This document shows, in pieces, positions 14,200-15,719 of a DNA stretch of 22,506 bases (positions are counted from its first letter, which is position 1; every line of letters begins with the position of its first letter). The position numbers and the translations under genes were made by a program. Under the pieces are notes generated by a model. The model saw only the letters and a program-made list of their open reading frames with translations, did no database searches and was not told the DNA's origin. The DNA lies in IMG/VR virus record IMGVR_UViG_3300046713_000240, positions 1 to 22,506 of that record; one strand, written 5' to 3'. The DNA comes from a virus.

Positions 14200-14445
14200 A
14201 TGCACACCCTACGCTTGCACGCTGCGGAAACGCCGCCTGGCCAGGCGCCGCCAGGCGTTCCATATCATTACGACAACGACACTATACCGATGACGCACCA
14301 AATTGCCAAATCCAATCCTGTTTTTGACCCTTTGACCGAAAAAGTACCAGGTTGGAAACTCAGGAAAAAGCATGCTTGTTTTCTGGGGACGGTTTGGGCG
14401 AATCGGGTGCCGTTTCTGCAAAAAGCATGCTTTTATTCAGGGTGA
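14200..14445 (+). CDS. Doubtful 81-codon ORF over a regulatory region
   Basis: ATG 14200 opens 81 codons just after the membrane protein; a second start lies at 14290 (MTHQIAKSNPVFDPLTEKVP). The 5' part is a GC-rich palindromic stretch (14234-14257), and the 3' part contains two copies of the AAAAGCATGCTTTT element, read as KKHACF and QKACF. No good ribosome binding site was seen. It may be a real short gene from 14290 or simply the untranslated leader of the methyltransferase. Confidence 0.3.
   Translation: MHTLRLHAAETPPGQAPPGVPYHYDNDTIPMTHQIAKSNPVFDPLTEKVPGWKLRKKHACFLGTVWANRVPFLQKACFYSG
14365..14434. promoter_or_regulatory. Two GCATGC palindromic sites upstream of the methyltransferase
   Basis: AAAAAGCATGCTTGTTTT (14365-14382) and AAAAAGCATGCTTTT (14420-14434) share the palindrome AAAAGCATGCTTTT with variation at one end. 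Their centres are 55 bases apart and the second ends 14 bases before the methyltransferase ATG. The palindrome has no loop, so it is a DNA-binding site rather than a hairpin. Likely operators; the nearby 79-residue helix-turn-helix protein is the natural candidate binder. Confidence 0.6.
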
Positions 14446-14448
14446 AAA

Positions 14449-15402
14449 ATGGATCACGCGCACGCCCTGCTTGAACGCATGCGGCTGGATGTGGGCCAGG
14501 TGTTTGACAGTCTGCTTAGCCGGCCCTTGCGTGTGCTTGATCTGTTCAGCGGCATCGGAGGCTTCTCGCTGGGCTTCGAACGTGCGGGAATGCGCACCGT
14601 GGGCTTCTGCGAAATCGACCCTTACGCACGCGCCGTGCTGGCGAAACATTGGCCGGGAGTGCCATGCCATGATGATGTTAAGACACTCGATGTCCGAAGT
14701 GGCATCGATGTGGTGTGCGGTGGCTTCCCGTGTCAGGACATATCCGTGGCCGGGCGCAACGCCGGTATCGATGGAGCGCGCAGCGGATTGTGGCGCGACA
14801 TGCTCCACATCGTCGAAACCATCAGGCCGCAATGGGTCGTCATCGAAAACGTCCCGGCCCTTCGCTCTAGAGGACTGGACAGAGTGCTCGGGACACTCGC
14901 TGCGCTCGGCTATGCTTGTGAATGGCATTGTATACCCGCTGCCGGCGTTGGCGCCCCTCACCGGAGGGATCGGGTCTGGATCGTGGCCCACGCCTACGGA
15001 GGCGGACGGCAAGGGCGGGCGCGCGCCCGACAATCTGGCGACGGCGGCACGGGTCTGGCCTACGCCGACGACGCGCGACTGGAAGGATGGCGACAGCCGA
15101 TCATGTCGCAACGTGCCTTCGAACGCCTTGCTTGGACGCGAAGTGCATCATGGCTCGCAGGCGCATGGAACCGTTCTGAACCCGGAATGGGTAGAATTGC
15201 TGATGGGCTATCCGAAGGGCTGGACCGAAGTGAACGCCCCGCCGAACAGTGGGAGCAGGGCACGCCGCGGACGGTAGGAAAAGGACTGCCGGAACGGCGC
15301 CGGCGCCTGATCGCGCTCGGCAACGCCATCGTCCCCCAGATCGCGGAACTTATCGGGCGTACGATTGTGCAAAAGCATGCTTTATTGGAAATGAAACGAT
15401 GA
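14449..15402 (+). CDS. DNA (cytosine-5-)-methyltransferase
   Basis: 317 residues carrying the ordered motifs of C5 methyltransferases: motif I DLFSGIGG (31-38), Glu55 in FCEIDP, motif IV GGFPCQDIS (91-99) with nucleophile Cys95, motif VI ENV (133-135), motif VIII HRRDRVW (171-177), and motif X GNAIVPQ (about 291-297). Motif X makes the enzyme formally complete. It transfers a methyl group from SAM to C5 of cytosine in a site that cannot be read from sequence. No restriction endonuclease is adjacent, so an orphan, protective role fits. Between motifs VIII and X, where target recognition should lie, the sequence is Gly/Arg-rich and short, and a second frame carries methyltransferase-like sequence there. 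Two palindromic sites precede it and a third overlaps its 3' end. Its stop overlaps the next start (ATGA). Confidence 0.92.
   Translation: MDHAHALLERMRLDVGQVFDSLLSRPLRVLDLFSGIGGFSLGFERAGMRTVGFCEIDPYARAVLAKHWPGVPCHDDVKTLDVRSGIDVVCGGFPCQDISVAGRNAGIDGARSGLWRDMLHIVETIRPQWVVIENVPALRSRGLDRVLGTLAALGYACEWHCIPAAGVGAPHRRDRVWIVAHAYGGGRQGRARARQSGDGGTGLAYADDARLEGWRQPIMSQRAFERLAWTRSASWLAGAWNRSEPGMGRIADGLSEGLDRSERPAEQWEQGTPRTVGKGLPERRRRLIALGNAIVPQIAELIGRTIVQKHALLEMKR
14912..15277 (+). other. Second reading frame with methyltransferase-like signatures
   Basis: In the frame one base ahead of the methyltransferase, 121 codons run from ATG 14912 to a stop at 15277. The part from 14984 on reads SWPTPTEADGKGG, then VWPTPTTRDWKDG (second WPTPT at 15056), LLGREV, and near 15178 LNPEWVELLMGYPKGWTEV. 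I recognise the WPTPTxxDxKxG and LNPxWVExLMGxPxGWT pattern as the C-terminal half of many phage cytosine methyltransferases. The same bases in the main frame read EPGMGRIADGLSEGLDR, which is also a known ending type. No ribosome binding site precedes ATG 14912. It could be a frameshifted C-terminus, an overprinted gene or a relic. Confidence 0.45.
15371..15386. promoter_or_regulatory. GCATGC palindromic site before the helix-turn-helix gene
   Basis: AAAAGCATGCTTTATT (15371-15386) lies inside the last codons of the methyltransferase gene (QKHALLE) and 12 bases before the next start codon. This copy is constrained both as coding and as a palindrome. It would place an operator directly on the helix-turn-helix gene. 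Confidence 0.55.
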
Positions 15403-15638
15403 AAAGCGAAGAGTTCAAAGCCTGGCTTGACCGCCACCATCTAGGTCCGGTCGAGGCCGCACGCCTGTTGGGCGTGGCGTATCAGTCGATCTATAATTGG
15501 AGCGGAAGGCGGCGGCGCGTGCCGAAGCAGGTGGCGCTTTTGACCGCTTACATCGACAACTATGGCTGGCCTGCTGCGGCGCTCACATCTTCCCAGTGCA
15601 AGCAGATAGGCTTAGTGACGCAGAAGCAGGCGGCGTAA
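15399..15638 (+). CDS. Small helix-turn-helix regulator
   Basis: 79 residues from ATG 15399, in ATGA overlap with the methyltransferase stop. Residues about 14-36, HLGPVEAARLLGVAYQSIYN plus W, form a Cro/YdaS-like helix-turn-helix, followed by a basic RRRRVPKQVALL stretch and a short dimer-like helix. It is the right size for a Cro-type repressor. Three palindromic sites lie upstream and two downstream, so autoregulation and control of the methyltransferase are plausible, much as controller proteins act on modification genes. DNA target and partners are inference. Confidence 0.72.
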   Translation: MKSEEFKAWLDRHHLGPVEAARLLGVAYQSIYNWSGRRRRVPKQVALLTAYIDNYGWPAAALTSSQCKQIGLVTQKQAA

Positions 15639-15719
15639 AAAAGCATGCTTTTATCGTGGCCAATCTACACCTGGCCAGTCCGCGGCTGCGGCAGCGGTTT
15701 TGTTGTAGAGCATGCTTTT
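15637..15719. promoter_or_regulatory. Two GCATGC palindromic sites at the convergent gene ends
   Basis: AAAAAAGCATGCTTTT (15637-15652) covers the gap between the plus-strand TAA (15636-15638) and the minus-strand TAA (15651-15653). AGAGCATGCTTTT (15707-15719) lies 67 bases further on, inside the 3' end of the minus-strand gene. These complete a set of five sites, all within 14365-15719. Confidence 0.55.

Follow-up and report, generated by a model that had tools for sequence, protein, structure and literature searches.

Overlapping reading frames at the methyltransferase locus

The window, by which we mean the whole stretch of DNA analysed, is a 22.5 kb virus record (22,506 nt, IMGVR_UViG_3300046713_000240). 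It contains an ORF for a C5-cytosine methyltransferase (alpha) and, inside this ORF and in the +1 frame, a second ORF (beta), with the following features:

14449-15402, + strand: alpha, C5-cytosine methyltransferase ORF, 317 amino acids, with motifs I-VIII and X and without a motif IX of its own
14655-14659, + strand: GGGAG, Shine-Dalgarno-like site for beta, 9 nt before the ATG at 14669
14669-15277, + strand: beta, nested +1-frame gene, 202 amino acids from a putative start codon
14959-14979, + strand: motif VIII of alpha, HRRDRVW; its +1 reading is part of a conserved stretch of beta that runs into GSGxWPTPT
14984-15055, + strand: first WPTPT module of beta, about 72 nt, missing in the nearest relative (L002) in a pairwise alignment
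15056-15097, + strand: second WPTPT module of beta, WPTPTTRDWKDGDS
15176-15226, + strand: motif IX, LNPEWVELLMGYPKGWT, in the +1 frame; columns invariant or near-invariant in alignment A1
15178-15228, + strand: main-frame string EPGMGRIADGLSEGLDR, on the same bases as motif IX and for the most part its shadow
15316-15339, + strand: motif X of alpha, LGNAIVPQ, downstream of the nested stop, where the DNA is single-coding again

Alpha harbors the catalytic domain of a C5-cytosine DNA methyltransferase with motifs I, IV (PCQ), VI (ENV) and VIII. It matches PF00145 over residues 28-181 (E = 7e-43; 147.6 bits, cut-off 22) and phrog_363 (E = 5e-80), and M.HhaI was aligned to it over residues 26-180 only (E = 7.5e-20). 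Motif X follows after the recognition region, residues 290-296 of alpha falling on invariant columns of alignment A3. In the AlphaFold model of alpha the pLDDT is about 90 or more over most of residues 30-180, 82-94 in the last blocks (about 290-317), which include the motif X helix, and below 50 over residues 194-214 and 234-284, which include EPGMGRIADG, the main-frame reading at the position of motif IX; for EPGMGRIADGLSEGLDR it is about 36. Given the low pLDDT over most of residues 190-284, alpha is predicted to be without a folded small domain and its string EPGMGRIADGLSEGLDR to be mostly a disordered shadow of motif IX. Foldseek aligned about 162 columns of the model with M.HhaI, which correspond to the catalytic half.

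No stop interrupts the +1 frame between 14372 and 15277, and the conserved nested protein begins near 14669, where the ATG is followed by further in-frame ATGs at 14672 and 14675. Beta belongs to phrog_1008 (E = 1.4e-19), which is the nested +1 family. A Pfam search found no relative of beta, and in the PDB the nested profile matched only apolipoprotein E, by chance. Folded alone, beta yielded a poor model (pLDDT 59, pTM 0.24; 42 sequences). The first WPTPT module, being missing in L002, must have been gained or lost without breaking either frame.

An earlier note, made from the letters of this DNA, had described the main-frame string between motif VIII (14959) and motif X (15316) and, in the +1 frame, WPTPT at 14984 and 15056 and the longer string LNPEWVELLMGYPKGWTEV, which begins at 15176. 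All of this was borne out by the sequence, the coordinates to within a base or two. The segment that the note had delimited, 14940-15277, is indeed read in two frames, but is only the 3' end of a longer +1 ORF.

Conservation and selection in two frames

Scans of IMG/VR with the main protein and with the +1 protein, a scan of bacterial genomes with the +1 alignment, and named phage records yielded 319 phage and bacterial loci. A profile search showed the layout of the window in 301 of these, with motifs I-VIII and X sharing a frame and the nested protein read in +1. The scans with +1 queries partly selected for the +1 motif, whereas the scan with the main protein did not; in the latter the WPTP/LNP half was missing in only 5 of 72 loci, one of which is cut short (L061), one of which runs into unrelated sequence (L069), and three of which belong to a single-chain family (L062, L064, L070). 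These tallies count loci, near-identical ones included; there are 118 distinct anchor sequences among the first 153 loci. L153 was considered as an in-frame WPTP methyltransferase and was dropped; a nested frame with motif IX is also present there.

The earlier note had taken the two strings for endings known from phage methyltransferases and encoded by the same DNA one base apart. Both are real family signatures, and they are paired exactly one base apart in more than 100 distinct loci. The note had also stated that the overlap would be a coincidence if in homologues the +1 frame were full of stops and free substitutions, which is clearly not so.

The gene was recoded with synonymous codons, either from neighbouring genes or permuted from the gene itself, the main protein remaining unchanged. 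A recoded gene has on average 3-4 stops in the +1 stretch 14669-15277, which is fully open in 2.8% or 0.5% of the recodings, depending on the scheme. Against a nested-protein profile built without the window and without its nearest relative, beta scores 195.7 bits, a value reached by none of 10,000 synonymous recodings (maximum 121.5). The recoded sequences still average 72-76 bits to this profile, and the main protein therefore forces part of the +1 resemblance, but not the observed level. To that extent the recodings lend something to the view that in this GC-rich DNA the +1 frame just passively shadows a conserved protein.

Rates at four-fold degenerate sites, determined for the main and the +1 frame from close homologue pairs, bear on the same point. 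They were 0.215 (main) versus 0.024 (+1) in motifs I-III, 0.048 versus 0.069 in the stretch before motif VIII, 0.024 versus 0.170 in the recognition region, 0.022 versus 0.099 in the motif IX block and 0.337 versus 0.000 at motif X; because the sequence pairs are not independent, these rates are contrasts rather than tests. The codon-position counts agree with them. Selection thus acts on the main frame alone at both ends of the gene, on both frames in the middle and mainly on the +1 frame over the recognition region, where the synonymous sites of the main frame are nearly frozen and those of the +1 frame vary near the unconstrained rate of motifs I-III. The comparison of the window with L002 is a small sample that points in the same direction: 2 of 62 synonymous codons differ in 14980-15277 and 9 of 36 after the nested stop. 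A passive shadow, to which we give hardly any credence, is already refuted by the four-fold rates unless a constraint at the RNA level mimics +1 coding. A chance overlap was likewise considered and is ruled out by the synonymous recoding together with the four-fold site rates.

For the origin of the two endings the earlier note had offered three options. A single ancient indel does not fit, both frames being under selection today; overprinting fits best. The third option, programmed frameshifting near motif VIII, would join the same catalytic domain to another ending and so yield a second enzyme. The frames do overlap just past motif VIII, and in one locus (L068) motifs I-VI are naturally fused in frame to WPTP...LNPxWVE, but this fused form was found in only 1 of 106 loci. 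With frameshifting, the +1 constraint should set in at the shift site and there should be no independent start, whereas synonymous change drops far upstream of motif VIII, starting at a +1-frame ATG with a Shine-Dalgarno site in front of it. At one alignment column, which in the window corresponds to the ATG at 14669 with its GGGAG, this combination occurs in 35 loci versus 6.9 expected under synonymous permutation, and at another column, in a second subfamily, in 14 versus 1.5 expected. In the sister-clade members shown (see below), the likely nested start is closely preceded by stop codons. Both the onset of the constraint and the excess of Shine-Dalgarno sites speak for an internal start rather than for frameshifting, which we regard as very improbable.

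Between the nested start and motif VI, at motif IV, the constraint weakens and the synonymous rate goes up again, so that the first 30 or so codons of beta may vary freely and its exact start is a putative one. A continuous start at 14669 does not fully account for this rise or for the two-frame constraint before motif VIII.

Division of the motifs between the two chains

The homologous loci exhibit four architectures. In the clade of the window motif IX is in beta and motif X in alpha. In a sister clade (L313, L320-L371) the main frame contains LNPDWVEWLMGxP as well as motifs I-VIII and X. The +1 frame of these loci still has the WPTPT region but comes to a stop before motif IX, where the synonymous rates of the main frame are normal again. 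Because LNPxWVExLMG is there in frame with motifs I-VIII and X, it can be identified as methyltransferase motif IX. The main chain of the Streptomyces phages Lilbooboo and phiBT1 goes no further than motif VIII, and an overlapping +1 ORF contains the recognition region, motif IX and motif X. The members of a third clade are complete single-chain methyltransferases, with the recognition region, a canonical motif IX (LTPTECERLQGFPDGWT) and motif X all in alpha. In each architecture a locus has the recognition region, motif IX and motif X only once, both chains taken together.

The third clade, which comprises L062, L064, L070 and their relatives L409-L429, also has a nested +1 ORF, whose ending, LSPKACAGILRRAEKRGK, is not that of beta and in which synonymous change is reduced.

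The earlier note had proposed that the two endings supply one locus with two target specificities. This did not hold up, since LNPxWVExLMGxPxGWT is motif IX and the main-frame string is mostly its shadow. The two proteins seem to complement each other within a single enzyme. In the window the large polypeptide has motifs I-VIII and X and lacks motif IX, as in an enzyme of the M.EcoHK31I type, motif IX (LNPEWVELLMGYPKGWT) sits in the small polypeptide, and the small gene (14669-15277) lies inside the large one (14449-15402) in another frame, an arrangement kept in the homologues. By analogy, beta most likely supplies the recognition region and the motif IX that are absent from the main protein.

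We therefore consider it probable that the locus encodes one two-polypeptide C5-cytosine methyltransferase of the M.EcoHK31I kind from overlapping genes. Alpha would be the catalytic chain, consisting of motifs I-VIII, a poorly constrained linker and motif X. Beta would start inside the alpha gene at its own ribosome-binding site in the +1 frame, carry the recognition region (the WPTPT modules) and the motif IX missing from alpha, and stop before motif X; alpha and beta would then assemble into an active enzyme, like alpha and beta of M.EcoHK31I. That beta is produced, binds to alpha and sets the target sequence is what we infer from this arrangement.

Beta could instead be a separate product with a role of its own, such as a regulator or an anti-restriction factor, that overprints the gene and is no subunit of the enzyme. 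Such a product would explain why a nested +1 gene persists in single-chain methyltransferases and would suit a protein without a relative in Pfam or the PDB. Against it stands the way in which the two chains complement each other: in the window clade beta carries just the motif IX that alpha is missing, where alpha holds motif IX the nested gene stops before it, and where alpha ends early the nested frame has taken over motifs IX and X. We consider a separate product unlikely. The single-chain clade with its constrained nested gene nevertheless implies that the supply of motif IX cannot be the only role of the nested gene, which must have, or have had, another one.

An extension of the two-polypeptide reading is that a large class of phage C5 methyltransferases has, as a general and little-recognised trait, nested +1 partners. 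These would act as a changeable specificity or regulatory subunit, with WPTPT modules gained and lost without breaking the frames and with a function beyond completing the enzyme. We put this forward tentatively, its chances being in our estimate somewhat less than even.

Relation to known methyltransferases and to annotated phage genes

M.EcoHK31I from E. coli, which recognizes YGGCCR, consists like the enzyme proposed for the window of two polypeptides, the large one with motifs I-VIII and X and the small one with motif IX. Its small gene reportedly lies inside the large gene in another frame. M.EcoHK31I belongs to a restriction-modification system, whereas the window is from a phage and no restriction gene was recognised beside the methyltransferase. 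The recognition domain was predicted to be in the large subunit of M.EcoHK31I, together with motifs I-VIII and X, and motif IX in the small one (PMC3404938), whereas in the window the substitution rates place the recognition domain in the nested protein. By its architecture the locus would be of the same kind as M.EcoHK31I (X82231). With the window gene and three relatives as DNA queries, E. coli genomes yielded no match that was recognised as M.EcoHK31I.

M.AquI is split within the variable region into a large subunit with motifs I-VIII and a small subunit with motifs IX-X (PMC3404938). The loci of Lilbooboo and phiBT1 are split in this way too, with overlapping frames. Motif X is in the small subunit of M.AquI and in the large one of the window.

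In PHROGs the nested family (phrog_1008) and the alpha family (phrog_363) are both labelled 'DNA methyltransferase', the listing making no mention of the overlap. In Paenibacillus phage Shelly the gene within the methyltransferase gp55 has an annotation of its own, as gp56, and bears the note 'g55 internal gene'; it is called a hypothetical protein, and no function or conservation is claimed for it. A search of open-licence papers, by the motif strings as well as by overlap or nesting of methyltransferase genes in phages, brought up no description of the general pattern. The kind is known from a few enzymes; new are its breadth in phages, the selection in two frames and the varied split of the recognition region and motifs between the chains.

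Long nested genes on the same strand with clear selection in both frames have rarely been documented in bacteria and phages; here they occur in hundreds of contigs. The nested gene explains mislabelled entries, namely the nested family listed as 'DNA methyltransferase', a phiBT1 methylase that 'may be inactive' and a prophage gene given as two pseudogenes. Provided that the nested chain determines the target sequence, the loci would be a natural series of split methyltransferases in which changes of phage DNA modification can be studied, and in many tests of phage methyltransferases, done with one cloned ORF each, half of the enzyme would have been missing.

In phage phiBT1 (L406, 1581-2685) it is gp9.1 that carries the note 'DNA methylase may be inactive', and what it lacks, the recognition region and motifs IX and X, is in an unannotated overlapping +1 ORF (1699-2628). 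In the prophage of E. coli NZ_CP041110 (L405, 2489-3658) the annotation breaks a methyltransferase gene with a nested +1 ORF into two incomplete pseudogenes, even though its main frame runs through both pieces without a stop. In Mycobacterium phage Llama (L159, 1513-2272) the methyltransferase is divided between two annotated genes. The cause is a change of frame near 1875, seen by comparison with phage ShroomBoi (L158); it also shifts the nested frame out of place and is possibly a recent inactivation or a sequencing error.

In the window five near-perfect palindromes AAAAGCATGCTTTT (14366-14379, 14421-14434, 15371-15384, 15639-15652 and 15706-15719) flank the methyltransferase gene together with a small ORF (15399-15638) that is Cro-like, with a weak match to P22_Cro. 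The number expected is 0.69, and no shuffle gave five. The palindromes resemble operators, and L002 has four of them around its own copy.
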